Of a DNA stretch of 64,000 nucleotides, positions 48,655-61,796 are shown one piece after another (within the stretch, counting starts at the first letter, position 1; each line of letters opens with the position of its first letter). The DNA is from Syntrophomonas sp. (GTDB lineage: Bacteria; Bacillota; Syntrophomonadia; Syntrophomonadales; Syntrophomonadaceae): contig JAENZN010000019.1 in assembly GCA_016841245.1 (NCBI GenBank), positions 1 through 64,000 of the forward strand, written 5' to 3'. Below the pieces are notes generated by a model. That model searched no databases and was not told the DNA's origin. It saw only the letters and a program-made list of their open reading frames with translations. The translations under genes and the position numbers were made by a program.

Positions 48655-48689
48655 TTTAATCTAACACAAAAAAGTTGTGTTAGATTAAA
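48655..48689. terminator. Hairpin, 15-bp stem
   Basis: TTTAATCTAACACAA pairs perfectly with TTGTGTTAGATTAAA around a 5-nt loop; no long T-tail. Lies after the small ORF above. Confidence 0.5.
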
Positions 48690-48694
48690 TGTAT

Positions 48695-48727
48695 AAAACA
48701 CCTGTAATTTGGAATTACAGGTGTTTT
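48695..48727 (+). terminator. Perfect intrinsic terminator hairpin
   Basis: AAAACACCTGTAATT and AATTACAGGTGTTTT pair perfectly with a 3-nt loop, followed by T. It directly precedes the group II intron remnant, as expected for a group IIC intron insertion site. Confidence 0.8.
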
Positions 48728-48731
48728 TGGG

Positions 48732-48851
48732 GTGCGCTCGGCATGGGCGCAGTCTAATGGGTGAAAGTTCCTGGCGCGGATTGATAGTGTCAAGCACCTA
48801 GCCAAGGCAAGGGCGTCCATCGTGAGGTACATCGTGAGGTGGAATCTGGAG
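48732..48851 (+). mobile_element. Group IIC intron 5' remnant
   Basis: Begins GTGCGCTCGGCATGGGCGCA, then GTCTAATGGGTGAAAGTTCC and, further on, CAAGGGCGTCCATCGTGAGG and GGTGGAATCTGG. This order matches domain I of bacterial class C group II introns as I remember it. It starts five bases after a terminator hairpin, the known target type. It is cut off after about 120 bases by a REP-like palindrome; no reverse transcriptase follows. TCGTGAGGT occurs twice, a small internal duplication. Confidence 0.6.
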
Positions 48852-48880
48852 GTGGACAAGAGAACCGTCCCCTTGTCCAT
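48852..48880. repeat. REP-like palindrome (copy of RAYT flanking repeat)
   Basis: GTGGACAAG, AGAACCGTCCC, CTTGTCCAT: nearly identical over about 33 bases to the palindrome at 62685-62713. Confidence 0.85.
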
Positions 48881-49125
48881 AAATGTAAGATTTTACCTGC
48901 AGGTATAATGAAGTAATGAGCATGTTAAAGAAATATAAAGAAAAATGATAATATTCACTTGTGCCAGGCATTTTTGATACTTGAATCGACTTGTAGTAAG
49001 AGAATAATTGTAACATAATAATACTTGGTAATTGCAAGAGCAAAATACAATTATTTGATTAATGAGTTAAGGTTGGCAAAGGAGCCGCAGGAAATAGTCC
49101 TGCGGATTTTGTATTTAAGGTGAAG

Positions 49126-49182
49126 ATGCCTGAAAAATCAGCTTTTGTTGTAGAGAATCTTGCTGCTGCGAAAGAAAAATAA
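49126..49182 (+). CDS. 18-residue peptide ORF, copy 1
   Basis: ATG-started 18-codon frame, MPEKSAFVVENLAAAKEK, with AAGGTG 3-8 bp upstream. Translation is not proven: of four differences from copy 2, three change the amino acid. The role could be leader peptide, regulatory or chance. Confidence 0.35.
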   Translation: MPEKSAFVVENLAAAKEK

Positions 49183-49204
49183 AAACAAAAAATAACGGCA
49201 ATGA

Positions 49205-49237
49205 AGCCTGTGGGGATTTCCCGACAGGCTTTTTTTA
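49205..49237 (+). terminator. Terminator of tandem unit 1
   Basis: AGCCTGT and ACAGGCT with an inner GGGA/TCCC stem, followed by seven T. Confidence 0.8.
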
Positions 49238-49295
49238 TTGAAGGCAAAGGAGCCCGCAGGAAAATAGTCCTGCGGATTTTGTATTTAAGGTGAAG

Positions 49296-49352
49296 ATGCC
49301 TGAAACATCAGCTTTTGTTGTAGAAAATCTTGCTGCTGAGAAAGATAAATAA
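49296..49352 (+). CDS. 18-residue peptide ORF, copy 2
   Basis: MPETSAFVVENLAAEKDK, same length and spacing from AAGGTG as copy 1. Differences: K4T, A15E, E17D and one silent change. Confidence 0.35.
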   Translation: MPETSAFVVENLAAEKDK

Positions 49353-49374
49353 AACCAAAAAATAATGGCAATGA

Positions 49375-49405
49375 AGCCTGTGGGGATTTCCCGACAGGCT
49401 TTTTA
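49375..49405 (+). terminator. Terminator of tandem unit 2
   Basis: Same hairpin as unit 1, shorter T-run. Confidence 0.75.
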
Positions 49406-49420
49406 TATTGAAGGCAAAGG

Positions 49421-49452
49421 AGCCTGCAGATAACAAACTGCAGGCTTTTATT
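49421..49452 (+). terminator. Terminator-like hairpin before the permease
   Basis: AGCCTGCAG pairs perfectly with CTGCAGGCT around an 8-nt loop, followed by TTTATTAAT. It is the third terminator in tandem upstream of the permease gene. Confidence 0.65.
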
Positions 49453-49511
49453 AATAAGGAGATAGCTAGCTCATAGCTGTTTTCAGATTCCAGTAATAAT
49501 AAACATTAGAG

Positions 49512-49625
49512 TTGGATAAGGAAGTGATTGATATTAATGATGACATAGTAGATAAACTTCAAAAACTAACATCAGCTCAGGAAGTAAAACTATTGAGGGG
49601 AGAAAGTCGTTATGGAACAAAGTAA
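49512..49625 (+). CDS. Possible 37-residue leader ORF overlapping the permease start
   Basis: A TTG-started frame (GTG alternative at 49524 after AAGGAA) reading DKEVIDINDDIVDKLQKLTS and ending inside the first codons of the permease. The overlap would allow translational coupling. Weak evidence. Confidence 0.25.
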   Translation: MDKEVIDINDDIVDKLQKLTSAQEVKLLRGESRYGTK

Positions 49626-50994
49626 GAAACTAGGTTTTTTATCTGCATTTTCAGTCGCGGTAGGGTTAGTGGTTGCCTCCAGTACCCTGGTTACTCTAGG
49701 TCAGGGAATGGGTATGGCCGGGGGCGGTTTCATATTTGCTATGATTGCTGCCTGGCTCTTGCAGTTGTTCTCGGCACAGAGTTTTGCAGAGTTAACCACA
49801 TCATTACCCAAGTCAGGCAGTTTAAATGTTTATGCACGTATGGCTTTTGGTCCGGTGGTAGGAATTATAAGTATTTTAGCCGGTTATGTATATATGAGCT
49901 TTTTGACTGTCCCGGCGGAGTTAGCAGTGGCCGGAGCGGTATTTAACGGGGTTTTTGCCCCCGAGTTTTCTCCGGCGGTTTTTGCCCTGATTTTATTGGC
50001 CATCTTTGCTATAGCTAATTTAATGGGGGTTGATGTCTTTGCCAAACTCCAAATTTTCTTAACGGTTACCATGATTATCTCAATGAGTCTGCTGGGTATA
50101 ATTGGCCTGGCTAACCTGGGACTGCCGACTCCCAGCATTCCGGAAATGCCTTTTAATCCATTGGGATTTTCAGTTTTGGGTCTTACGGCATTAGCTATCT
50201 GGCTGTACATAGGTATAGAATTTGTTTGCCCCCTGGTAGAAGAAATTGATCAACCAGCAAAAAATATTCCGATGGCCATGACTATAGGTTTGGTTGTAAT
50301 TGTTGTAGTCAACTTATTATATGGCTTTGCCTCAATCAAATATGTAGCTGCCGCTGCTTTAGCTTTCTCTGATATTCCGCATATTCTAGTGGCTCAAGCC
50401 ATTCTGGGCCGGACCGGAGAAATATGGATAGGGATTGTGTCTATCTTGGCTACCGCAAGTTCGGTCAATACTTTCATGGCGGTTATTCCCAGGATGCTAT
50501 ACAGCATGGCGAAAGAGGGGGAAGCACCAAAATTCTTAGCTCAAATTCACCCCCGCTTCAGAACACCCTGGTTGGGTATTGTTCTAGTGTTTGCTGTATA
50601 TGCCCTGCTCCTTTTAATGGGTATTGCCGGAATTGAGCAGATCATTATTCTTATCATGTCGGCCGCAACCTGCTGGTTGTTAGCTTATATATTAACCCAC
50701 ATTATTGTGATCGTTATGCGCAACCGGTATCCTACTCTGGAACGACCCTACAAAACTCCCTTTTACCCGATACCGCAGATTATTGGCAGTCTGGGTATGC
50801 TTTATGCCATATGGCAGATATGGGGAGATGTTGTTACTAAAATGATGATATACAAATACGCCGCCGTTGCGCTGATAATTTGTATAGTCTACGCATTGAT
50901 CTGGGTGAAGTTTGTAATGAAAAAAGAATTATTTAAACCGGTTTCTTTAGAAGAAGAAATGGGCAGTGATTTTGTAAAAGCCGCTCTGAATTGA
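49612..50994 (+). CDS. APC-superfamily amino acid/amine permease
   Basis: 460 residues with about 12 hydrophobic helices. The first reads SVAVGLVVASSTLVTLGQG, the broken-helix substrate site of the APC superfamily. Later features: LPKSGSLNVYARMAFGP, EEIDQPAKNIPMAM (cytoplasmic loop), SSVNTFMAVIPRMLYSMAKEG. Imports an amino acid or amine by proton or sodium symport or exchange. ATG after GAGGGGAG. First main gene of the 49.6-61.8 kb operon, so it likely imports that pathway's substrate. Role comparable to PuuP in putrescine use; inference. Confidence 0.88.
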   Translation: MEQSKKLGFLSAFSVAVGLVVASSTLVTLGQGMGMAGGGFIFAMIAAWLLQLFSAQSFAELTTSLPKSGSLNVYARMAFGPVVGIISILAGYVYMSFLTVPAELAVAGAVFNGVFAPEFSPAVFALILLAIFAIANLMGVDVFAKLQIFLTVTMIISMSLLGIIGLANLGLPTPSIPEMPFNPLGFSVLGLTALAIWLYIGIEFVCPLVEEIDQPAKNIPMAMTIGLVVIVVVNLLYGFASIKYVAAAALAFSDIPHILVAQAILGRTGEIWIGIVSILATASSVNTFMAVIPRMLYSMAKEGEAPKFLAQIHPRFRTPWLGIVLVFAVYALLLLMGIAGIEQIIILIMSAATCWLLAYILTHIIVIVMRNRYPTLERPYKTPFYPIPQIIGSLGMLYAIWQIWGDVVTKMMIYKYAAVALIICIVYALIWVKFVMKKELFKPVSLEEEMGSDFVKAALN

Positions 50995-51006
50995 GGTGGA
51001 TGAGCT

Positions 51007-51573
51007 ATGAAGCAAAAAATTGATAATGATGCCAAAACTAACCTGGAGTTTTTAGCAGCCCAATTTGCTCCTTATTGGGGTGAAATGGAGACACATAGGG
51101 ATGGAGTAGTTTTTACTGATCCTCCGCCTCCTTTATCGAAAGTAAAAATAAATATAAAAAAGAAAAAATCCCTGCTGGGTGGAGTATATGCCCTGCAAAT
51201 CATCGGTGAGATTGAGAAAGAAGGCCTGGTAAAAGATAGAATTCCAATTCGTCTTCATTATCAGGGGATGGTAAGCAAAGGAAAAGCATACTTCAAACAT
51301 CAGCAGGATATGCATGACGACCTTATAAAACAGTTGAACAATGATTCCAATTTGATAGATATGCTAAGCTGCCTGGATCTTGAAACCGGAGAAATATGGC
51401 TGGAGGATGAGAAATACACCATAATAATGTCTCCGATAAGTGGGTCTTTTATGTATATGGTATTTCCGCCCATGCGTTATTCAGGAACACTTCCCAAAGA
51501 GGAAATTGGTCAGCTTAATACCTCGTTATTCAGAACATCGGAGCTGTTGCAAAGCTGTATTGCGGCTGTATAA
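51007..51573 (+). CDS. Conserved-looking protein of unknown function
   Basis: 188 residues, cytoplasmic, no family recognised. Visible: a basic stretch (KVKINIKKKKSLLGG) after DPPPPLSK, alternating strand-like phrases (RIPIRLHYQGMV, EIWLEDEKYTIIMSP) and a hydrophobic GSFMYMVFPPMRYSG. It lies 12 bp after the permease and 34 bp before the WD40 gene, so it belongs to the operon. ATG after GAGGTGG. Confidence 0.7.
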   Translation: MKQKIDNDAKTNLEFLAAQFAPYWGEMETHRDGVVFTDPPPPLSKVKINIKKKKSLLGGVYALQIIGEIEKEGLVKDRIPIRLHYQGMVSKGKAYFKHQQDMHDDLIKQLNNDSNLIDMLSCLDLETGEIWLEDEKYTIIMSPISGSFMYMVFPPMRYSGTLPKEEIGQLNTSLFRTSELLQSCIAAV

Positions 51574-51607
51574 AAAGGACCGGCAATGAAAGAGAGGAGA
51601 AATAAAA

Positions 51608-52651
51608 ATGATAGCACTTAAGAGATATTGGATATTAATTGCAGTTTGTCTGGCATTAGGTACATTTCTTATAGCATCTAACCTGACCCGGGACAGCCTG
51701 GCTTCTTCCGGCGAGGAGGAAGCCAGCGTTAACGTCGAGTTGGGACAGCTAAATGAGGCTCTTGCCAATGATGAAGAACTGATGTTTTTCACGGGAAAGA
51801 ATGGCAACCTGTCAGCTTATTCTCTGGACCTGGAAAAGATCATGGACTTTCCAACTTTAGATGAAAATGAAAGCAATGCGGTAGCAGTTTCTCCAGATAA
51901 TAGTCTGCTGGTGAGTGGTGATGAAACAGGTAAAGTTGTGGTATGGGATGTGCAAAATCAAAAGGCCAGTACTCTTGATGATGCCCATTTAGGGGATATA
52001 TTAAGTGCTGCCTTTTCACCTGACGGTAAGTATTTTGCCACTGCCAGTAAAGATAGAACCATTAAAATATGGGATGCTGTTTCATTAACCGCTTTACAGA
52101 CCCTGAAGGGGCATGGCAGCTATGTTTTAGATATTGATTTCAGTCCTGACAGCAAATATCTTGCTTCAGTTGGTTCGGACAACCTGCTGGCAGTATGGGA
52201 TGTTGAAACGGGAGATAAGATCGATGAAAAAAAGAACAGCCATTTCAGAGCCGTAAATCAGGTTTCTTATTCACCGGATGGCAAGCATCTTTATACGGCT
52301 AGTTCAGATACCCTGATAAAGATTTGGGATTCTGAAAACCTGGAATGTTTAAATACTTTGAAGGGACATAACAGTGAAATCCTCAGTTTATGCATCAGCC
52401 CTGATGGAAAAACAATTTTATCAGCCGGCAGGGACAAAACTATGCTCTGTTTTGATGCTGCCAGCGGGGAAATGAAAGCCAGGGTAGACTTACCCAACAA
52501 TCTTTATGTGTCTGATATTCTGTTTGCAGGAAATGGGTCGTATGTATATGTAGCAGATATGTCCGGAAATATCCTCTGCATGGATTATCAGAGCAGAGAA
52601 ATTGTAAAAGAAACCACTATAGGTCCCATCTATGCTATGGGGATGATTTAG
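51608..52651 (+). CDS. Exported WD40-repeat protein
   Basis: 347 residues. A hydrophobic amino segment (YWILIAVCLALGTFLIA, about 7-23) acts as signal anchor. Then about seven WD40 repeats with SPDGK and IKIWD/VWD cores (e.g. AAFSPDGKYFATASKDRTIKI) forming a propeller outside the membrane. WD40 domains are scaffolds, so this may dock a partner or sense a ligand; no enzyme motif. Its place inside an amine/amino-acid operon is unusual. ATG after GAGAGGAG. Confidence 0.85.
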   Translation: MIALKRYWILIAVCLALGTFLIASNLTRDSLASSGEEEASVNVELGQLNEALANDEELMFFTGKNGNLSAYSLDLEKIMDFPTLDENESNAVAVSPDNSLLVSGDETGKVVVWDVQNQKASTLDDAHLGDILSAAFSPDGKYFATASKDRTIKIWDAVSLTALQTLKGHGSYVLDIDFSPDSKYLASVGSDNLLAVWDVETGDKIDEKKNSHFRAVNQVSYSPDGKHLYTASSDTLIKIWDSENLECLNTLKGHNSEILSLCISPDGKTILSAGRDKTMLCFDAASGEMKARVDLPNNLYVSDILFAGNGSYVYVADMSGNILCMDYQSREIVKETTIGPIYAMGMI

Positions 52652-52660
52652 GAGAAGTTA

Positions 52661-53380
52661 ATGAGAATTATGGAATTCTTTCATGATGAAGATCATCCTG
52701 AAGTTTCCAATATTGATTTGTGGATTCAGGAATATAATCATCAGTCTCAAAAAGTGCTGGTTTATAAGGGTGATAACTTTCCGGAGCTGGATACCTTTGA
52801 TCTTATTTTGCTGCATGGCGGGGGGCAGCACCTCTGGAACAAGGATGCCAATCCATGGCTTTATGCAGAAACAGATTATATAAGAAAAGTACTGATAAAG
52901 CATAAACCTGTTATTGGATTCTGCCTGGGCAGTCAGATTATTGCAGATGCCCTGGGGGCCAAGATATACCAGGATAAAGAAATTGAATTTGGCTGGATTA
53001 AAGTAAGAGTCAGACCAGAGGCCGAGGGACATGCAGTCCTGAAAGGACTGGAGGAAGGTTTTGTAAGCTTTATGTGGCACAGAGATCACTATGAACTCCC
53101 GGAAAATTGCGTATCCCTGGCATATACATCCACAGCCGCCAATCAGATTTTTGTCAGTAAGAATTGGCCGGCGGTAGGGTTTCAATTTCATCCGGAGTAT
53201 ACCAGGGAAATAGTAAAAACCTATTATCAAACTTACCGCGGTACAGAATATTTGCAACTGCCGCATAGTCTGCCGCTAGATGAATTTAATAAAAATACTG
53301 ATGCTGTACCGGATACTTATTTGTTATTCCGGCAGTTGTTAAACAATGCGGTGAGATTTCTCAGCCTGGAAAACGAATGA
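52661..53380 (+). CDS. Class I glutamine amidotransferase-like protein
   Basis: 239 residues. Nucleophile elbow GFCLGSQ (C88), oxyanion-side LLHGGGQHLW, MWHRDHYELP, and the His/Glu pair QFHPEYT (H177/E179): a full catalytic triad of the GuaA/COG0518 type, but with no synthetase domain. It probably hydrolyses a gamma-glutamyl amide. In this operon it could cleave gamma-glutamyl intermediates made by the GS-like ligase next door, analogous to PuuD; substrate inferred. ATG shortly after AGGAG. Confidence 0.82.
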   Translation: MRIMEFFHDEDHPEVSNIDLWIQEYNHQSQKVLVYKGDNFPELDTFDLILLHGGGQHLWNKDANPWLYAETDYIRKVLIKHKPVIGFCLGSQIIADALGAKIYQDKEIEFGWIKVRVRPEAEGHAVLKGLEEGFVSFMWHRDHYELPENCVSLAYTSTAANQIFVSKNWPAVGFQFHPEYTREIVKTYYQTYRGTEYLQLPHSLPLDEFNKNTDAVPDTYLLFRQLLNNAVRFLSLENE

Positions 53381-53419
53381 CAGTAATATTACTGCATTGA
53401 GTGAAAGGAGTGCCTGACC

Positions 53420-54796
53420 ATGGAACAAAGTAATGTAATCCAAATTGCAAATGAATATAAGCATACAAAGATAGAAGAAGTAAAAAGCTTGATCAAAGAC
53501 CAGGGAATAGAAATGATTCGCTTAGAATTTGTGGATCTGAATGGTATCAACCGAGGTAAGCTTCTGCCTGCTGATATGATTGATGTGGTCTTTGAGGAGG
53601 GGATAGCCTTTGCTGCTGCTATCATGGCTATAGGTATGGATAACAGCGTGGCTGAGGTTAAGGGGTTGTCAGAATATTATGATGATATGAAGGTGATCGG
53701 AGATCCAGCTACCTTTACCATATTGCCTTACCTGGAAAATACCGCCATGCTGCTGGGTGATATTTATTATCATAAAGAGCCGATGATGCAATCCCCGCGC
53801 TGGTTCTTGAAAAACATGATAAAAGCATATAACGATTTGGGGTTCAACCCAATTTCGGCTTCTGAAATTGAATTTTTCCTGTTTAATAAAACTAAGGGCG
53901 GCGACTATGAACCTTACACCAATCAAACGGGCAACTGCTATACCAGCAATATTCGGATTGATTCCAAGGGTTTTCTTAATAAACTAACTAAAACCCTGAG
54001 AGACATGGATTTTAAGGTTTTGTATATGAATCATGAATTTTATCCGGGTCAGTATGAGTACAACTGGAGTCATACCCCCAGTCTGCGCAGCGCTGATGAA
54101 GGCAGTCTGTTTAAAGGGATATGCAAAGACATAGCTGAACAAAATGATTTAGTTGCTACCTTTATGGCCAAACCAAGAAATGATACCGGCGGCAGCGGCT
54201 GCCATTTTCATATTTCTTTAAACGATATAAAAACCGGAAAAAATGTTTTTTTCGATGCTGATGATCCTGAACAGCTATCCCCGCTTATGCGAAACTTTGT
54301 AGCCGGAGTACTCAAGCATGCCAGGCCATTGACAGCATTTTTGGCCCCGACGGTCAACTGCTTTAAGCGTTATCAACCGGATACCTTTGCCCCTTACTAT
54401 ATTGGATGGGGATATGATAATCGTACCACCTATGTTCGCATACCGGAAGAACGTGAAAAGGGGACTAGAGTAGAGGTTAGAGCGGGTAGTGCAGCCTGCA
54501 ACCCTTATCTGGCCCTGGCCGGGATTTTGGCGGCAGGACTGGATGGGATAAAGAATAATTTACAGCCGCCGGAAATTATCAAGACTGACCTCTATCACGA
54601 TAGCGAAAAACAGAGTGAGATTGTACCCAAGAGCCTGTATCGAGCTTTAATAGAGCTGGAGCAAGATGAATGGTTATGCCAGTGTGCAGGCCAGGCCTTA
54701 ATTGATAATTTTATTGCTATCAAGAATATGGAAGTAAATAATTTCAGTAATTCCGTTACCGATTGGGAATGGAAACAATATTCCTACCATATTTAG
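53420..54796 (+). CDS. Glutamine-synthetase-like gamma-glutamyl-amine ligase
   Basis: 458 residues with the GS fold: beta-grasp start (IRLEFVDLNGINRGKLLP), metal-binding SEIEFFLF, MNHEFYPGQYEYN, ATP-side TGGSGCHFHISLND, CFKRYQP, and RIPEEREKGTRVEVR. It is shorter than the housekeeping GlnA at 3772 and ends without NLYxLxPEE and PHPxEFELYY, so the adenylylation site is absent. It resembles GlnT/GmaS/PuuA ligases that join glutamate to an amine. With split GltB-like genes directly downstream, a gamma-glutamylmethylamide synthetase-like role is my preferred reading. ATG after AAAGGAG. Confidence 0.8.
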   Translation: MEQSNVIQIANEYKHTKIEEVKSLIKDQGIEMIRLEFVDLNGINRGKLLPADMIDVVFEEGIAFAAAIMAIGMDNSVAEVKGLSEYYDDMKVIGDPATFTILPYLENTAMLLGDIYYHKEPMMQSPRWFLKNMIKAYNDLGFNPISASEIEFFLFNKTKGGDYEPYTNQTGNCYTSNIRIDSKGFLNKLTKTLRDMDFKVLYMNHEFYPGQYEYNWSHTPSLRSADEGSLFKGICKDIAEQNDLVATFMAKPRNDTGGSGCHFHISLNDIKTGKNVFFDADDPEQLSPLMRNFVAGVLKHARPLTAFLAPTVNCFKRYQPDTFAPYYIGWGYDNRTTYVRIPEEREKGTRVEVRAGSAACNPYLALAGILAAGLDGIKNNLQPPEIIKTDLYHDSEKQSEIVPKSLYRALIELEQDEWLCQCAGQALIDNFIAIKNMEVNNFSNSVTDWEWKQYSYHI

Positions 54797-54957
54797 GAGG
54801 CTGGGAAGCAAGTTTCGGAAATCAACTCTTATGAACTGAAGCGTTATTTATTGGCGTTTCAACAGCTAATTATCAGCAGGCAAATTAGTTCTGCAGCCCA
54901 AGGGGGAATTTTTATTAAAAAACAGCTCATTTTTCATATTTATAGGAGGAATTGATT

Positions 54958-55857
54958 ATGTGTGGAATTGCTGGATTAATTAATCGACAGGGTATGGATG
55001 TATCATCCAAGCTGATCGAAATGCTTTCCCTGATACAGCATCGCGGACCTGATGCGAGCGGAATATCGATTTATGGCAGTGCAGCAGATGAAGTGTCTTT
55101 GCGGGTATCTGTCAAAAGAAAAGATATGGAAGAAGTATTGCTGAATATTGTGGGGCAGTATGGAACCGTATTATCGCCGCCGGTATCCCAGTGGATTAAA
55201 AATGTTATATTTTCCGAGCTGCAGCTGGCTATTGATGATAATGATATACCTTTGCTGCATGCAGCTATCAACTCAATTGAAGGGCTATATGTGCATTCAC
55301 TGGGTAAGGGTATGAGAGTATACAAAGACGGTGGGACTATACTTGATCTAAATAACAACCATAAAATAATCAGCCCCATAGCGACTCATGGACTTGGTCA
55401 TGTGCGTATGGCAACTGAGAGTGCTGAAGATATTAATGCGGCGCATCCTTTTGTATCTCCCTTTTATCCGGATCTGTCTATAGTACATAACGGTCAATTT
55501 ACTAACTACTTCAATCTAAGGAGATATCTGGAGAGCAAAGGAGCTATTTTCAAGACTCTCAACGATTCCGAAGCTGCCAGCCATCTGATTGCTTATGCGA
55601 TGAGAGAAAATGGCGGGGATTTAGAGGATGCCTTAAGAATGGCCGGGGAAGAATTGGATGGTGTTTTCTGCATTATAGCAGCCACTGCCCAGCAGATAGG
55701 TTTTGTAAGGGACAAGCTGGGCATAAAACCTCTCTTGCTTTTTGAAAAAGATGGACTTACCATGTTAGGTTCAGAGCAAATAGAATTCACCGCCCTTTTT
55801 TCAGATGTATATGCCGAGGAAATAGAGCCCGGGGAGGTGAGAGTATGGAATATATAG
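54958..55857 (+). CDS. GltB-type class II amidotransferase subunit (GlxB/MgsA-like)
   Basis: 299 residues. ATG 54958 behind AGGAGG puts Cys at position 2 (M-CGIAGLI), the Ntn nucleophile after Met removal. Further: LIQHRGPDASG, GLGHVRMATES, VHNGQFTNYF and DKLGIKPLLLF. It is a free-standing glutaminase domain like the first domain of glutamate synthase. Together with the next two genes it makes the three-part enzyme seen as GlxBCD or N-methylglutamate synthase MgsABC. Its end overlaps the next gene by 13 bp. Confidence 0.87.
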   Translation: MCGIAGLINRQGMDVSSKLIEMLSLIQHRGPDASGISIYGSAADEVSLRVSVKRKDMEEVLLNIVGQYGTVLSPPVSQWIKNVIFSELQLAIDDNDIPLLHAAINSIEGLYVHSLGKGMRVYKDGGTILDLNNNHKIISPIATHGLGHVRMATESAEDINAAHPFVSPFYPDLSIVHNGQFTNYFNLRRYLESKGAIFKTLNDSEAASHLIAYAMRENGGDLEDALRMAGEELDGVFCIIAATAQQIGFVRDKLGIKPLLLFEKDGLTMLGSEQIEFTALFSDVYAEEIEPGEVRVWNI

Positions 55858-56558
55858 ATGCTGCCAATTTAAAAAGCATTGAACTTAATAAAGAAATCAT
55901 CAACAAACTTAAGCAATGTGGTGAAGTAACTATCCAAAACCCGCACTCTATGCACAATGTTGCCACGGGATTACCAGATCCAGGTAAGGTTATTATCCAG
56001 GGCAGTACCGGTTTCTATACCGGGGGCTTTATGGAAGGGACTGCTCTGCTGGTGGAAGGAAATGCAGGCTGGTACGCTGGCGACAACATGATGGAGGGGG
56101 AACTCTTGATCAGTAAGAATACTGGCTGCAATGCCGGCACTTATTTATACGGCGGGAATATCGTAGTCTACGGAAATACCGGCAGCCGGGTGGGATATGG
56201 CATGAAGGGCGGTACCATCATTGTTTGCGGTTCCGCCGGACCCTGGGCCGGACAGATGACTATGGGGGGCAAGCTTATAATCCTTGGAAAAGCAGGCAGC
56301 AAGGTTGGGGAGTCTATGTATAAAGGAGCCATATTCGTTCGTGATCCGGAGGCGGGAGACAAAATGGGCAGCAATGTTTTCCTGGACAGCATTAAAGCAG
56401 ATGAAGAACAGGAGCTGAAAGATCTTTTTGCCAGGTATGATATAACCGCTGATCCGGCGGAATTTAAGGTTGTTCGTCCTATGCAAACTGGCAGGCATAC
56501 CTATGTTTTATTTAATCCGGATTTAAAACCTGAATTATCCCGAAAAATGCCAGGGTAA
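55845..56558 (+). CDS. GltB-type GXGXG structural subunit (GlxC/MgsB-like)
   Basis: 237 residues dominated by a right-handed beta-helix with repeated G-x-G turns (GNAGWYAGDNMMEGELLI, GNTGSRVGYGMKGGTIIV, GSAGPWAGQMTMGGKLII), as in the GXGXG domain of glutamate synthase. It has a structural role between glutaminase and synthase subunits. Overlaps the amidotransferase gene, so the products are made together. Confidence 0.88.
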   Translation: MEYIDAANLKSIELNKEIINKLKQCGEVTIQNPHSMHNVATGLPDPGKVIIQGSTGFYTGGFMEGTALLVEGNAGWYAGDNMMEGELLISKNTGCNAGTYLYGGNIVVYGNTGSRVGYGMKGGTIIVCGSAGPWAGQMTMGGKLIILGKAGSKVGESMYKGAIFVRDPEAGDKMGSNVFLDSIKADEEQELKDLFARYDITADPAEFKVVRPMQTGRHTYVLFNPDLKPELSRKMPG

Positions 56559-56577
56559 AACTTAAGGAGAGAGCGCT

Positions 56578-57876
56578 ATGAGTAATGAAAAGAAAAAAGA
56601 TTTTGAACCTAAAGATATACAGCATGGTATCTGGAACAAGGAAACCATCTCCGAAATAGATTACAAAGCCCAGTACGGGCAGCATAGGATTCGAGGCTGT
56701 GGGGCAACTCGTTATATGCCCACTTTTAACGATATTATGATTCTGCCTTCTCAGCTTTCACGCTTGTCTTTAGATACCTACCGCGAAAGCTGTGAGACCA
56801 AAACCATTTTAGGGAAACGAGGTGCCAGTAAACCTTTAGAAATAGAAACACCGATTATGATAGCCGGGATGTCCTATGGTGCCCTGAGCAAAGAAGCTAA
56901 AATAGCACTGGCTAAAGCTACCGCTCTCACCGGGACAGTAATCAGCAATGGTGAAGGGGGATTGCTTCCAGAGGAAAGGCAATATTCTTACCGGCAGTCG
57001 ATACAAATTCTTCCCAGTCGCTTTGGATTTTCCAAGCGAAGCCTGGAAGCGGCAGATATGCTGGAATTCCTGGTGGGCATCGGAGCAAAACCCGGTTTGT
57101 CCGGCCATTTGATGGGCAGCAAAATCAGCGAAGAAATTGCCGAAGCCAGACAGCTTCCGGTAGGCATTGATCTCCACAGCCATCCCCGTCACGGCGATGC
57201 TTTTGGAGCAGACGATATGGTGGTTAAAATGGAACAGCTAAGAGAACTAACCAATGGAGAAGTACCCATATTTGCCAAGATTGCCGCAGGAAGAGTCAGA
57301 GACGATGTTAAAATCGCGGTGAAAGTCGGAGCAGATGGTATTATTCTGGATGGAGCCCAGGGGGGAACCGGAGCGGCTCCGGTAATGGCTACCAATCATT
57401 TGGGTATTCCCACTATGCCAGCCCTGGTGCAGGCGGTTAGAACCCTGGAAGAAATGGGTATGAAAAACGAAATCAGTATTATTGTTTCCGGTGGTATAAC
57501 TGATGGCTCGGATCTAGCCAAGGCCCTGGCTATAGGAGCAGACGCAGTAGCCATAGGGACAGGCGCCATGGTCGCCATGGGATGCCGGGTATGCTTGCGC
57601 TGTCATAATGGCAAATGTGCTTTTGGCATCGGCACTCAGGACCCGGAATTAAGACAAAGACTGGATATTGAAGAAGCTGCCGAAAGGGTAGCCAATTATA
57701 TAAAGGCTATGACTGCCGAAGCCGTTCTTCTGGCTAAAGCTGCCGGAAAAACCAAATTAAGAAATCTGGAGCGAGAAGATCTTAGAACGCTTACTCTGGA
57801 GGCCTGTGCTATGACCGGTATTCCACTGGTAGGCAGCAATTTTGTATTTGGAGAACGCTTTGGATTTGAGTGCTAA
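56578..57876 (+). CDS. GltB-type FMN/Fe-S synthase subunit (GlxD/MgsC-like)
   Basis: 432 residues, the FMN-binding synthase core: ETPIMIAGMSYGALS, SNGEGGLLPEER, QILPSRFG, DLHSHPRHGDAFG, KIAAGRVRDDVKIAVKVGAD, LDGAQGGTGAAP and SGGITDGSDLAKALAIGADAV (split across the FMN site). C336-x5-C342-x4-C347 (CRVCLRCHNGKC) is the 3Fe-4S motif of GltB. Transfers an amino or amine group to 2-oxoglutarate. No GltD (NADPH) partner lies next to it, which argues against ordinary glutamate synthase. ATG after AAGGAGAG. Confidence 0.9.
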   Translation: MSNEKKKDFEPKDIQHGIWNKETISEIDYKAQYGQHRIRGCGATRYMPTFNDIMILPSQLSRLSLDTYRESCETKTILGKRGASKPLEIETPIMIAGMSYGALSKEAKIALAKATALTGTVISNGEGGLLPEERQYSYRQSIQILPSRFGFSKRSLEAADMLEFLVGIGAKPGLSGHLMGSKISEEIAEARQLPVGIDLHSHPRHGDAFGADDMVVKMEQLRELTNGEVPIFAKIAAGRVRDDVKIAVKVGADGIILDGAQGGTGAAPVMATNHLGIPTMPALVQAVRTLEEMGMKNEISIIVSGGITDGSDLAKALAIGADAVAIGTGAMVAMGCRVCLRCHNGKCAFGIGTQDPELRQRLDIEEAAERVANYIKAMTAEAVLLAKAAGKTKLRNLEREDLRTLTLEACAMTGIPLVGSNFVFGERFGFEC

Positions 57877-57893
57877 AGGAAGGTAGTGAACTA

Positions 57894-58217
57894 ATGAGAA
57901 TAGATCATCATCCGATATTGAAAACCTTTGAAAAAGGTAAATTGGTTAAATTCCTGTATGACGGCGAAGTCATGGAGGGTTATGAAGGAGAACCTATCGC
58001 GGTTGCTTTAAGGGCCAATGGAGTAATGATTCATCGCTATACCTCCAAACATAATGATCCCCGCGGGGTGTTCTGCGCTATCGGCCGCTGTACTGATTGT
58101 GTAATGGTGGTCGATGGCGAACCGAATATACGTACCTGCATAACGCCGCTGCAGGAAGATATGAAGATCGAAACCCAACACGGAATATCAAATAATAAAG
58201 AGGATGAAAGCATATGA
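57894..58217 (+). CDS. [2Fe-2S] subunit of amine/imino-acid dehydrogenase (Fer2_4 type)
   Basis: 107 residues, ATG 57894 behind GGAAGG. Cysteines C61, C66, C69 and C82 (FCAIGRCTDC, then RTC) match the small ferredoxin domain found at the amino end of sarcosine oxidase alpha or as separate subunits (HcnA-like, proline and hydroxyproline dehydrogenases). Carries electrons from the flavin subunits. Overlaps the next gene by 4 bp (ATGA). Confidence 0.85.
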   Translation: MRIDHHPILKTFEKGKLVKFLYDGEVMEGYEGEPIAVALRANGVMIHRYTSKHNDPRGVFCAIGRCTDCVMVVDGEPNIRTCITPLQEDMKIETQHGISNNKEDESI

Positions 58218-59806
58218 AAAGATACGAATTAATTATTATCGGAGCGGGACCAGCGGGACTATCTGCAGCTATTGAAGCGGCATCCAATGGCATGCAGGTA
58301 ATGGTATTTGATGAAAATGAAAGACCCGGAGGTCAATTATTCAAGCAGATCCACAAGTTCTTTGGTTCCAAGGAACATAAAGCCAAGGAAAGAGGCTTTA
58401 GAATTGGGGAAAAACTGCTTAAGGAAGCTGAAGGCCTGGGAGTTGAAGTGCAATTGAAGGCTGCTGTAATGGGTATTTTTGATGATAAAGAAATATCGGT
58501 AATGCTGGATGGGAGAGTTGAACACTATCGTGCTAATAATATAGTAATTGCTACCGGTGCTTCAGAAAAAATGCTTCCTTTTCCCGGCTGGACCTTACCA
58601 GGAGTAATTGGTGCAGGTGCGGCTCAAACTATGATGAATCTGCATGGTTTAAAGCCTGGCAGCAGGGTGCTTATGGTGGGATCAGGCAATGTGGGATTGG
58701 TGGTCGGTTATCAACTGCTTCAGGCTGGGTGCAAGCTGGAAGCAGTTATTGATGCTGCTCCCCGGGTAGGCGGATATGGAGTACATGCCGCCAAATTAGC
58801 CCGGACAGGAGTTCCTTTTTATATGTCCCATACCATAAAAGAAGCTCATGGTGACAGCTGTGTTAAGGGAGCTGCCATATTAGCGGTAGACAGCAGCTGG
58901 CAGCCGATTCCCGGCAGTGAAAAATACCTGGAGGTAGATACCATCTGTATGGCAGTTGGTTTATCACCTATGTCGCAGTTAGCTCGAACTGCTCACTGTG
59001 AAATGGAAAATAACCCGCTAAAAGGCGGGCTGGTTTCGATATGCAATAAATATGGAGAAACGTCCACTCCGGGTGTTTATGCAGTTGGAGATGTGGCTGG
59101 TATTGAAGAAGCCAGTTCGGCTATGATCCAGGGTAGAATTGCCGGAGCAGCTATCTCATTTGATAAAGGATATATAAACGAAGCAGAATTTGCGACTCGC
59201 TATGAAGAATATCAGAATTCATTAATGCAGCTGCGGGAGGGTATGTTTGGTCATAAGGATAAAGAAGCAGCGGATATGGAGCATACTGAGGAAGGATATA
59301 TTCTTTCCCAGAGCCTCTTAAGCAAAGGTTATATGGATGCTGAAGAAATAGAGGAGTATCCGGGTGTATATCCGGTCGAACAAAGAGGGAAGGGAGTATT
59401 CCCAGTTATTGAATGTACCCAGAACATTCCCTGCAATCCCTGTCAGGATGCATGCAAGCGCGGTTGTATTAAAGTCAGCGGCAAAATCACCAATCTGCCC
59501 AGTGTAGATGCTTCGGTTGAATGTACTGCCTGTGGCATGTGTGTAGTATCCTGTCCTGGTCAGGCTATCTTTCTGGTAGACGAAACTTTGGCTCCAGGTT
59601 ATGCTTCAGTTGCTATACCGTATGAGTTTTATCCTTTGCCAGAACCCGGCAGTAAAGGGCTGGCTTTAGATCGTTCCGGAACATCGCTGGGAGAGGCAGA
59701 GGTATTAAAGGTTAAAAGTTCTAAAGCGATGGATGAGACTGCAGTTCTAACCATGAAGGTGCCAGTAGAATGGTCCATGCAGGCCAGATTTTTTCAGGTT
59801 TATTGA
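58214..59806 (+). CDS. FAD/NAD-binding and 4Fe-4S subunit of amine dehydrogenase (HcnB/SoxA-like)
   Basis: 530 residues. FAD site IIIGAGPAGLSAAI (7-20), GGQLFKQ, IVIATGASEKMLPFPGW, NAD site VLMVGSGNVGLVVGYQL, and GVYAVGDVAG. After about residue 390 comes a carboxy extension with two cysteine clusters, CTQNIPCNPCQDACKRGC (401-418) and CTACGMCVVSC (437-447), the second of ferredoxin 4Fe-4S type. This is the large subunit of dye-linked-type dehydrogenases (HcnB, PDH alpha). The extra Fe-S domain suits anaerobic electron transfer. No folate-binding GcvT domain. Confidence 0.87.
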   Translation: MKRYELIIIGAGPAGLSAAIEAASNGMQVMVFDENERPGGQLFKQIHKFFGSKEHKAKERGFRIGEKLLKEAEGLGVEVQLKAAVMGIFDDKEISVMLDGRVEHYRANNIVIATGASEKMLPFPGWTLPGVIGAGAAQTMMNLHGLKPGSRVLMVGSGNVGLVVGYQLLQAGCKLEAVIDAAPRVGGYGVHAAKLARTGVPFYMSHTIKEAHGDSCVKGAAILAVDSSWQPIPGSEKYLEVDTICMAVGLSPMSQLARTAHCEMENNPLKGGLVSICNKYGETSTPGVYAVGDVAGIEEASSAMIQGRIAGAAISFDKGYINEAEFATRYEEYQNSLMQLREGMFGHKDKEAADMEHTEEGYILSQSLLSKGYMDAEEIEEYPGVYPVEQRGKGVFPVIECTQNIPCNPCQDACKRGCIKVSGKITNLPSVDASVECTACGMCVVSCPGQAIFLVDETLAPGYASVAIPYEFYPLPEPGSKGLALDRSGTSLGEAEVLKVKSSKAMDETAVLTMKVPVEWSMQARFFQVY

Positions 59807-59905
59807 AAAAATATGACTTTATAAATTATTATCTTACAGCAAGCAATACTCCACCGAATGGGAAAACAGCATCCGTTACTGTTTTATAGATTAAGGAGGC
59901 TTACC

Positions 59906-60232
59906 ATGACGATGAAAATGGAAAGAAAATTAATCCAGGGTGATTTTATTCCCCGGGCAGATGATGAACTGATTGTCTGCCGCTGTGAGGAAATTACCCA
60001 GGGAGAAATTAGAAAAGCTGTTTATGATGGAATGTTCACCATGAATGAAGTTAAAAGGTACCTGCGGGCGGGAATGGGTCTGTGCCAGGGACAAACCTGC
60101 AGTGGGCTGGTGCAAAAGATAATTGCCCGAGAACTTGGGCTTGCCCCGGGTGAAGTAGAGATATCTACTTCCCGTTCCCCGGCTCGCCCTATTCAGATGA
60201 AGCAAATGGCCAGGGATGGGGTAAAAAAATAA
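59906..60232 (+). CDS. BFD-like [2Fe-2S] subunit
   Basis: 108 residues, ATG 59906 behind AAGGAGG. C25, C27, C60 and C65 (VCRCEE and GLCQGQTC) form the BFD-like [2Fe-2S] motif found in HcnB-type and nitrite reductase proteins, usually fused to the alpha subunit but separate here. Completes the electron path between the two flavin subunits. 16 bp before the DAO-type subunit. Confidence 0.85.
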   Translation: MTMKMERKLIQGDFIPRADDELIVCRCEEITQGEIRKAVYDGMFTMNEVKRYLRAGMGLCQGQTCSGLVQKIIARELGLAPGEVEISTSRSPARPIQMKQMARDGVKK

Positions 60233-60248
60233 AGAGGTGGCAAACGAT

Positions 60249-61370
60249 ATGCAGAAAAAAGAAGTGATTATAGTTGGCGGTGGGGTAATAGGCTGTGCTA
60301 TTGCCTATTACCTGGCCAGGTTAAATGTTAAAGCTTTAGTTATAGAAAGTGAAGAAATCGGTCATGGAGGTTCCAGCCGCAACGGCGGCGGGGTACGGCA
60401 ATCAGCTCGTGATCCGCGAGAACTGCCGTTGGCTATGCACGCTATTCGCTATATATGGCCAAATCTCTCTGATGAACTGGGAGTAGATGTAGAATACTGC
60501 CAGGAAGGTAATTTGCGTCTGGCCAAAACGGAAGAGCATATCAAAATCCTGGAAAGGGTTATTGCTCAGGGGATTTCACTCGGACTCGACCTTAGACTTA
60601 TTGATCAGAAGGAAGTGCGTGAAATATGTCCTTATGTATCCGACGAAGTCATAGCTGCCAGCTATTGTCCTACCGACGGACACGGCAATCCCATGGTAAC
60701 TACCCTGGCCTATTATAAAAGAGCCCGGGAGATGGGAGCCGAATTTATTACCGGTGAAATGGTTCAATCAATTTTAATACGTAAAGGTAAGGTGGGGGGA
60801 ATAAAAACTAATCTGGGTACTTATGAGTCAGATCAGGTAATATTGGCAGCTGGATATGAGTCAAGAGCAATTGCCAATACCGTAGGGATCGATATCCCCA
60901 TGCAGAGAACCCTGGTTGAAGCACTGGTAACTGATCAACAGCCCTATATGTTTCCGCAGATGATTGGAACCGCTGCTTCCGACTTTTACGGTCATCAGAC
61001 TAAACATGGGTCTTTTGTATTTGGTGGTATGACCGGGCTGGAGCCCTATGGTTCAGAAGTAGATAATCCAATTACCAGGAGTATTACTGCGCCTTCGATC
61101 TGCAGAGCAATACTGGGCTATTTCCCGGCTATTGGACAGTCTAATATAGTCAGGACCTGGTCAGGATGGCTGGACGTATGTGCTGATCATGTGCCCATAT
61201 TAAGTAAAGTCGATGAACTGCCGGGTTTAACCCTGGCCTGTGCCTTCAGCGGTCACGGCTATGGTATAGCGCCTGCAGTAGGGCAATCTATGGCAGAATT
61301 AGTTGTTAATGGAAGTCCGTCCTTATCACTGGATGCCTTCCGCTATGATCGTTTCCAGCCAAAATCATAA
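60249..61370 (+). CDS. FAD-dependent amine/imino-acid dehydrogenase, catalytic subunit (DAO family)
   Basis: 373 residues, ATG 60249 behind AGAGGTGG. DAO-family features: IIVGGGVIGCAIAYYLA (FAD), GGSSRNGGGVRQSARDP after the first loop, DGHGNPMVTTLAYYKRA, AAGYESRAIA, and GHGYGIAPAVGQSMAELV at the end. Equivalent to SoxB/HcnC/OoxB/MgdA. It should oxidise a secondary amine or amino acid to an imine and pass electrons to the Fe-S subunits. Substrate inferred as an N-alkylglutamate or a related imino acid. Confidence 0.87.
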   Translation: MQKKEVIIVGGGVIGCAIAYYLARLNVKALVIESEEIGHGGSSRNGGGVRQSARDPRELPLAMHAIRYIWPNLSDELGVDVEYCQEGNLRLAKTEEHIKILERVIAQGISLGLDLRLIDQKEVREICPYVSDEVIAASYCPTDGHGNPMVTTLAYYKRAREMGAEFITGEMVQSILIRKGKVGGIKTNLGTYESDQVILAAGYESRAIANTVGIDIPMQRTLVEALVTDQQPYMFPQMIGTAASDFYGHQTKHGSFVFGGMTGLEPYGSEVDNPITRSITAPSICRAILGYFPAIGQSNIVRTWSGWLDVCADHVPILSKVDELPGLTLACAFSGHGYGIAPAVGQSMAELVVNGSPSLSLDAFRYDRFQPKS

Positions 61371-61391
61371 TATGGAGAGGAGATTATTAAT

Positions 61392-61796
61392 ATGGATTTA
61401 AGCAGAACTAATTATTCATCAGGAGCGCCCCTGGAAGAAACAGCCGGCTACAGCCGGGTAGTCAAAGTAGGACCCTTTATATACGTTGGAGGAACCACCT
61501 CGGTTCAGCCCGATGGCAGTGTATATGGAGAAAATGACGGCTATGCTCAAACCAAATTTATTCTGGAGAAAATGATCAAACACCTGGCAGAAGCCGGAGG
61601 AAAACGCGAAGAAGTAATTCGGGTCAAAATGTATGCGACTGATATGAGCCGATCCAAAGAATATATCCAGGCTTACTCCGAATACTTTAAAGATGTAAAA
61701 CCCCTGTGCACCCTGGTGGGAATAAATGCCTTGAATCGTCCCTCTCAGCTGATTGAGATTGAGATCGATGCGATTGTGGGGAGTTCGGGAATATAG
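61392..61796 (+). CDS. Rid-family protein without the RidA arginine
   Basis: 134 residues, YjgF/YER057c/UK114 fold: VVKVGPFIYVGGTTSVQPDG, Q-T-KFILEKMIKHLAEAGG, VIRVKMYATDM, and RPSQLIEIEIDAIVG. The Arg of the RidA motif (PARSCVEV) aligns with Cys in PLCTLVGI, so it may belong to a Rid group without imine-hydrolysis activity. Its place after an imine-forming dehydrogenase makes an imine-handling role attractive. Last gene of the operon; the REP-like palindrome follows 4 bp after the stop. Confidence 0.83.
   Translation: MDLSRTNYSSGAPLEETAGYSRVVKVGPFIYVGGTTSVQPDGSVYGENDGYAQTKFILEKMIKHLAEAGGKREEVIRVKMYATDMSRSKEYIQAYSEYFKDVKPLCTLVGINALNRPSQLIEIEIDAIVGSSGI

Follow-up and report, generated by a model that had tools for sequence, protein, structure and literature searches.

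Serial ANTAR-type attenuators as the probable identity of a tandem repeat array before an amine or nitrogen assimilation operon in Syntrophomonas

Tandem copies of a 170-bp unit precede a transporter operon in Syntrophomonas sp., and the question raised by this locus is what such an array does in front of a permease gene. The array lies in a 64,000-nucleotide stretch of contig JAENZN010000019.1 (the window), with upstream genes on the - strand and, as the next gene on the + strand, an APC permease gene at 49612. A first-pass annotation described the units as each having a hairpin, an 18-codon open reading frame (ORF) and a terminator, and proposed either a duplicated small-RNA or peptide gene or a tandem attenuator. 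Comparison with related genomes and with characterized antitermination systems indicates that the array is very probably a series of ANTAR-type attenuators, amplified by tandem duplication, which controls an operon for nitrogen or amine assimilation.

The permease is related to amino-acid and ethanolamine carriers, and the operon also encodes a DUF3156 protein, a WD40 protein, a class-I amidotransferase and a glutamine-synthetase-like ligase, with later genes for three split glutamate-synthase-like subunits, sarcosine-oxidase-like subunits and a Rid protein. The ligase scores below the cut-offs of the glutamine synthetase (GS) types and of gamma-glutamylputrescine synthetase. We take this gene set to suggest uptake of an amine, gamma-glutamylation and subsequent oxidation, and the operon (49612-61796) has the appearance of a pathway for amine assimilation, or of one of the N-methylglutamate type, in an anaerobic bacterium.

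Layout of the array and its surroundings

Two near-identical units and a partial third lie head to tail, as first described. Tandem Repeats Finder reports a period of 170 with 2.1 copies and 94% matches at 49075-49429, and a repeat search of the window returns two 168-bp copies that are 95% identical with a start-to-start distance of 170; the partial third unit, which opens with GGCAAAGGAGCC, extends from 49413 to ~49452. These two full copies are the sole full copies in the 3.9-Mb genome (genome-wide search), and the array is thus not part of an intergenic repeat spread over the genome, an outcome that the annotation had named as counting against its own reading. Relative to dinucleotide shuffles, the predicted folding is more stable both for a single unit (z -3.9) and for the whole array (z -7.0).

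The true repeat unit is A-spacer-B, in which hairpin A is the hairpin already noticed ahead of each ORF and is followed by a poor T-tract. The order of elements here is A-B-A-B-C, corresponding to five terminator-like hairpins (A1, B1, A2, B2 and C; Table 1). Serial terminators before the permease had been claimed and are indeed present, but their number had been put at three rather than five. By their predicted folding energies B1, B2 and C are firm terminators, while A1 and A2, with poor T-tracts, may cause only pausing of the polymerase.

Table 1. Positions in the window of the leader features and of the operon that follows
Feature	Position	Strand	Remarks
Candidate promoter TTGTAG-17-CATAAT	48991..49019	+	Weak consensus match; missed by the promoter scanner
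Element A1, hexaloop hairpin GGC[AAAGGA]GCC	49075..49086	+	ANTAR P2-like
Hairpin A1, CCGCAGG/CCTGCGG	49085..49116	+	Followed by poor T-tract; weak terminator or pause
18-codon ORF MPEKSAFVVENLAAAKEK	49126..49182	+	Judged a spacer; frame broken in sister species
Element B1, hexaloop hairpin GGC[AATGAA]GCC	49197..49208	+	
Terminator B1	49203..49239	+	-22 kcal/mol including hexaloop region; T-run 49230-49236
Element A2, hexaloop hairpin GGC[AAAGGA]GCC	49243..49254	+	
Hairpin A2	49254..49286	+	Poor T-tract
18-codon ORF MPETSAFVVENLAAEKDK	49296..49352	+	Judged a spacer
Element B2, hexaloop hairpin GGC[AATGAA]GCC	49367..49378	+	
Terminator B2	49373..49409	+	-22 kcal/mol
Element C (partial third unit), hexaloop hairpin AGGC[AAAGGA]GCCT	49412..49425	+	
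Terminator C, GAGCCTGCAG...CTGCAGGCTTTTATT	49420..49452	+	-19 kcal/mol
Likely regulated operon, permease to Rid protein	49612..61796	+	Extent judged from collinear genes

Among 100 related genomes the array is present in only one, that of the same-genus sister species Syntrophomonas sp. B5_bin.5 (GTDB; G003 of our genome set). At the same site this genome carries three full units and a partial one, giving the order A-B-A-B-A-B-C with seven elements. A 32-mer pattern of the unit had no match in a search of genome contigs, and sequences upstream of permease homologues elsewhere (67% for a Spirochaetaceae MAG; 43% or less for the others) contained no unit motifs. Positions 48935-49075 are nearly unchanged between the two species and the candidate promoter is unchanged, whereas the sequence before ~48881 is not in common.

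Several other features of these flanks were observed. The segment 49010-49026, TGTAACATAATAATACT, overlaps the candidate -10 box and resembles, with two mismatches, the Bacillus GlnR/TnrA box (TGTNANAWWWTMTNACA). Directly preceding the block common to both species, 48655-48880 contains GC-rich sequence and two perfect 15-bp inverted repeats, reminiscent of the remnant of a mobile element; in its place the sister species has a transposase gene upstream of the array. A second short frame of ~34 codons with a GTG start (VIDINDDIVDKLQKLTSAQEVK...) lies before the permease at 49526-49630 and overlaps the permease start, and a change of CAG to TAG in the sister species leaves 18 codons.

Hexaloop motif and ANTAR regulator

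Every terminator-like hairpin, five here and seven in the sister species, begins with a 12-mer of the form GGC-ANNGNN-GCC, and in all elements the last bases of this 12-mer are the start of the terminator 5' arm, the T-tract being poor for A1 and A2. The loop reads AAAGGA in A1, A2 and C, AATGAA in B1 and B2, and AGTGAG in one diverged sister copy. EutV-controlled terminators have a common 13-mer, AGCAANGRRGCUY, at their 5' side; this sequence forms the P2 hairpin, which requires loop bases A1 and G4 of its hexaloop and excludes the terminator (Ramesh et al. 2012, PMC3369931). The eut leaders also have a similar hairpin, P1, at a distance of 5-12 nt before P2, and with a 14-nt linker they lose most induction (PMC3369931). 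In the array, GGCAAAGGAGCCY and GGCAATGAAGCCT match the EutV 13-mer save for a compensating change of the outer pair, which is G-C here and A-U there. A hexaloop with the A1/G4 bases on a stem of at least 3 bp is found in 5/5 elements here and 7/7 in the sister species, and the 3' arm of this P2-like hairpin overlaps the 5' arm of an intrinsic terminator in all of them.

The loop of hairpin A itself was considered as the ANTAR loop and rejected, as its length varies and it is without A1/G4; the hexaloop is that of the 12-mer in front. Pairing of CCGCAGG with CCTGTGG, between hairpin A and the terminator arms, is possible on paper and follows from the CAGG/CCTG cores that they have in common.

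None of 500 dinucleotide shuffles of 48881-49611 had even one hexaloop-terminator site, compared with the five observed. Over 85 kb of the genome, the A1/G4 loop class gave 14 hexaloop-terminator overlaps against 0-5 for every other class, five of the 14 being the non-independent elements of the array and some others lying inside coding sequence. Two motifs at the array spacing occur, among 398 genomes of the phylum, in the array and in glnB leaders of the genus, with four single matches elsewhere. Terminators are often flanked on the 5' side by A-rich sequence, which makes the letters of the loop weak evidence by themselves and the A and C loops in part expected; the case rests on the paired stem that recurs, on the regulator and on the nitrogen context.

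The genome encodes one ANTAR protein of 194 aa, comprising a receiver-like part and an ANTAR domain (PF03861, 65.6 bits against a cut-off of 27.3), and its gene directly precedes glnA and split glutamate-synthase genes. The ANTAR-glnA leader contains GGAC[AAAGGC]GTCC overlapping a terminator, and a hexaloop-terminator is present in this leader in 5/5 genus genomes (this one and four congeners). On one contig with ANTAR-glnA, comparable elements are located at a carA-like gene, at glnB, in the glnB-amtB gap and at a second glnB. The first glnB leader has a full P1 (AAAGAGA[AAAGGA]TCTCTTT) 11 nt before P2, and a separate hexaloop-terminator, GGGC[AAAGGG]GCTC (read by eye), belongs to the second glnB-amtB pair. 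At least six leaders probably belong to the ANTAR regulon of this genome, which was sampled in targeted stretches and hence in part. Two hexaloop-terminators follow one another in the glnB leader of the congener G004, at a spacing similar to that of the array, so chaining is not confined to the array; the ANTAR-glnA leader of the same congener has a P1-like loop, CC[AAAGAC]GG, with a two-pair closing stem. A literature search on ANTAR and Syntrophomonas returned irrelevant matches only.

A P1 hairpin within 20 nt was found for 0/5 elements of the array. A2 and C have an upstream hexaloop (B1 and B2, respectively) at 33-34 nt, and no upstream hexaloop with a firm stem was found for A1, B1 or B2; several other nitrogen leaders of the genome are likewise lax on P1. 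Since none of the five elements has a P1 at 5-12 nt, we regard the array, on its sequence features, as ANTAR-like in action and variant in form rather than as a strict member of the class.

Short frames, copy divergence and alternative readings

Both 18-codon ORFs are open in the window, with AAGGTG before the ATG, and each ends ahead of a terminator; they differ, as stated in the first-pass annotation, by three amino-acid changes (K4T, A15E and E17D) and one silent change. These properties would suit a tandemly duplicated small gene, with a ribosome site and a terminator of its own, for an 18-residue peptide or for a small RNA that carries it. The frame is not kept between species, however, as two of the three sister copies read ATG-CCC-TGA and the third specifies a different 15-mer, with deletions of 2 nt and 7 nt. 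The 2-nt deletion is common to all three sister copies, which makes single assembly errors unlikely. The alteration of the ORF by indels in 3/3 sister units refutes a conserved peptide, and it is the hairpins and the 12-mer motif, not the ORF, that carry the conservation. No occurrence of the peptide outside the two arrays was found in a protein search of 101 genomes, and no promoter inside the unit stood out in a promoter scan. The proposed peptide or small-RNA gene is thus not supported, given the broken frames, and can be considered extremely improbable; judged from the two species, the ORF is best seen as a spacer between hairpin A and terminator B.

A tandem ligand-binding riboswitch, or a leader-peptide attenuator operated by the ribosome, would act without an ANTAR protein and is compatible with serial terminators before a transporter operon, with alternative pairing between similar hairpin arms and with a short ORF between hairpin A and terminator B. 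We consider either to be unlikely, because no Rfam family was found in the window at the gathering threshold (the best sub-threshold matches being at chance level), the ORF lacks both conservation and any run of a single amino acid, and the hexaloop motif also occurs in other nitrogen leaders that do not have such a unit.

The closest within-species copies of the unit are 95-100% alike, cross-species copies are less alike, and the partial C element is identical in both species. This pattern suggests that, since the two species separated, the A-B unit has been duplicated repeatedly or homogenised. The greater likeness of copies within a genome and the differing number of full units (two here, three in the sister species) could also reflect a neutral tandem duplication, in which ordinary terminators shield the permease operon from upstream transcription and the hexaloop match is incidental. 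That explanation is very unlikely given that no + strand gene ends just upstream, the neighbours being on the - strand, that the 140 bases ahead of the array hardly differ between the species, as expected for a promoter and leader, and that the hexaloops are kept in 12/12 elements. In the diverged sister terminator, three stem substitutions all keep pairing through G-U.

Proposed mechanism and relation to known ANTAR-type systems

The tandem attenuator of the original proposal is the reading that finds support, with an ANTAR antiterminator as the likely trans-acting factor. The region would be an untranslated leader transcribed from an upstream promoter, perhaps TTGTAG-17-CATAAT, in which tandem duplication of the A+B pair in front of the terminal element C would have produced five attenuators in series. 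RNA polymerase would by default meet terminator after terminator and would rarely reach the permease. The free GGC/GCC hairpin is only -2.8 kcal/mol, so termination is expected unless the hairpins are stabilised by the ANTAR protein. Once active, in response to a signal that is probably nitrogen status, this protein would bind the GGC-ANNGNN-GCC mini-hairpins, and each bound mini-hairpin would keep the first bases of the terminator 5' arm in the antiterminator and thereby allow read-through. With serial terminators, overall read-through would be obtained by multiplying the single probabilities, which predicts a tight shut-off and a steep response.

A speculative extension, which we consider possible but doubtful, is that the array is a cooperative platform in which chained single hexaloop-terminators replace private P1/P2 pairs and an ANTAR dimer spans the 32-34 nt from a B element to the A or C that follows it. 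Duplication of the unit would then tune the steepness of the nitrogen response, with copy number (five versus seven elements) still evolving.

With the ANTAR-type assignment, an anonymous repeat gains a named regulatory mechanism, and an uncharacterised amine or nitrogen operon of syntrophic bacteria gains a likely regulator. The natural copy-number series of five and seven elements offers a handle on the dose response of serial attenuators, and the array poses the question of whether ANTAR dimers need the EutV-type P1/P2 spacing.

Among known systems, the array is like the Enterococcus faecalis eutP, eutG, eutS and eutA leaders under EutV in its 13-nt motif at the terminator 5' base, in the A1/G4 hexaloop and in the overlap of the hairpin 3' arm with the terminator 5' arm, but those leaders have one attenuator each, with P1 5-12 nt before P2 and an A-U outer pair, whereas the array has five in series, no P1 at that position and a G-C outer pair (PMC3369931). 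The AmiR-amiE and NasR-nasF leaders share the mutually exclusive P2 antiterminator and terminator and the A1/G4 loops, and differ in having a single attenuator with a P1/P2 pair and in their signals, amides and nitrate (PMC3369936). Many predicted ANTAR targets lie at nitrogen genes, among them that for glutamate synthase in Desulfotomaculum reducens, and the predicted regulons of D. reducens and D. acetoxidans resemble the present case as nitrogen genes of Gram-positive anaerobes (PMC3369931). At least 13 attenuators are given for six transcription units of D. acetoxidans, and hence more than one per unit, but the text of that paper describes no tandem-duplicated unit with species-varying copy number (PMC3369931). 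The glnB-amtB and ANTAR-glnA leaders of the genus contain the same hexaloop-terminator element as the array; unlike the array, they have no duplicated 170-bp unit, and the glnB leaders of G000 and G003 have a full P1. We take the array to be a variant within a known kind of regulation, with a layout that is serial and variable in copy number.
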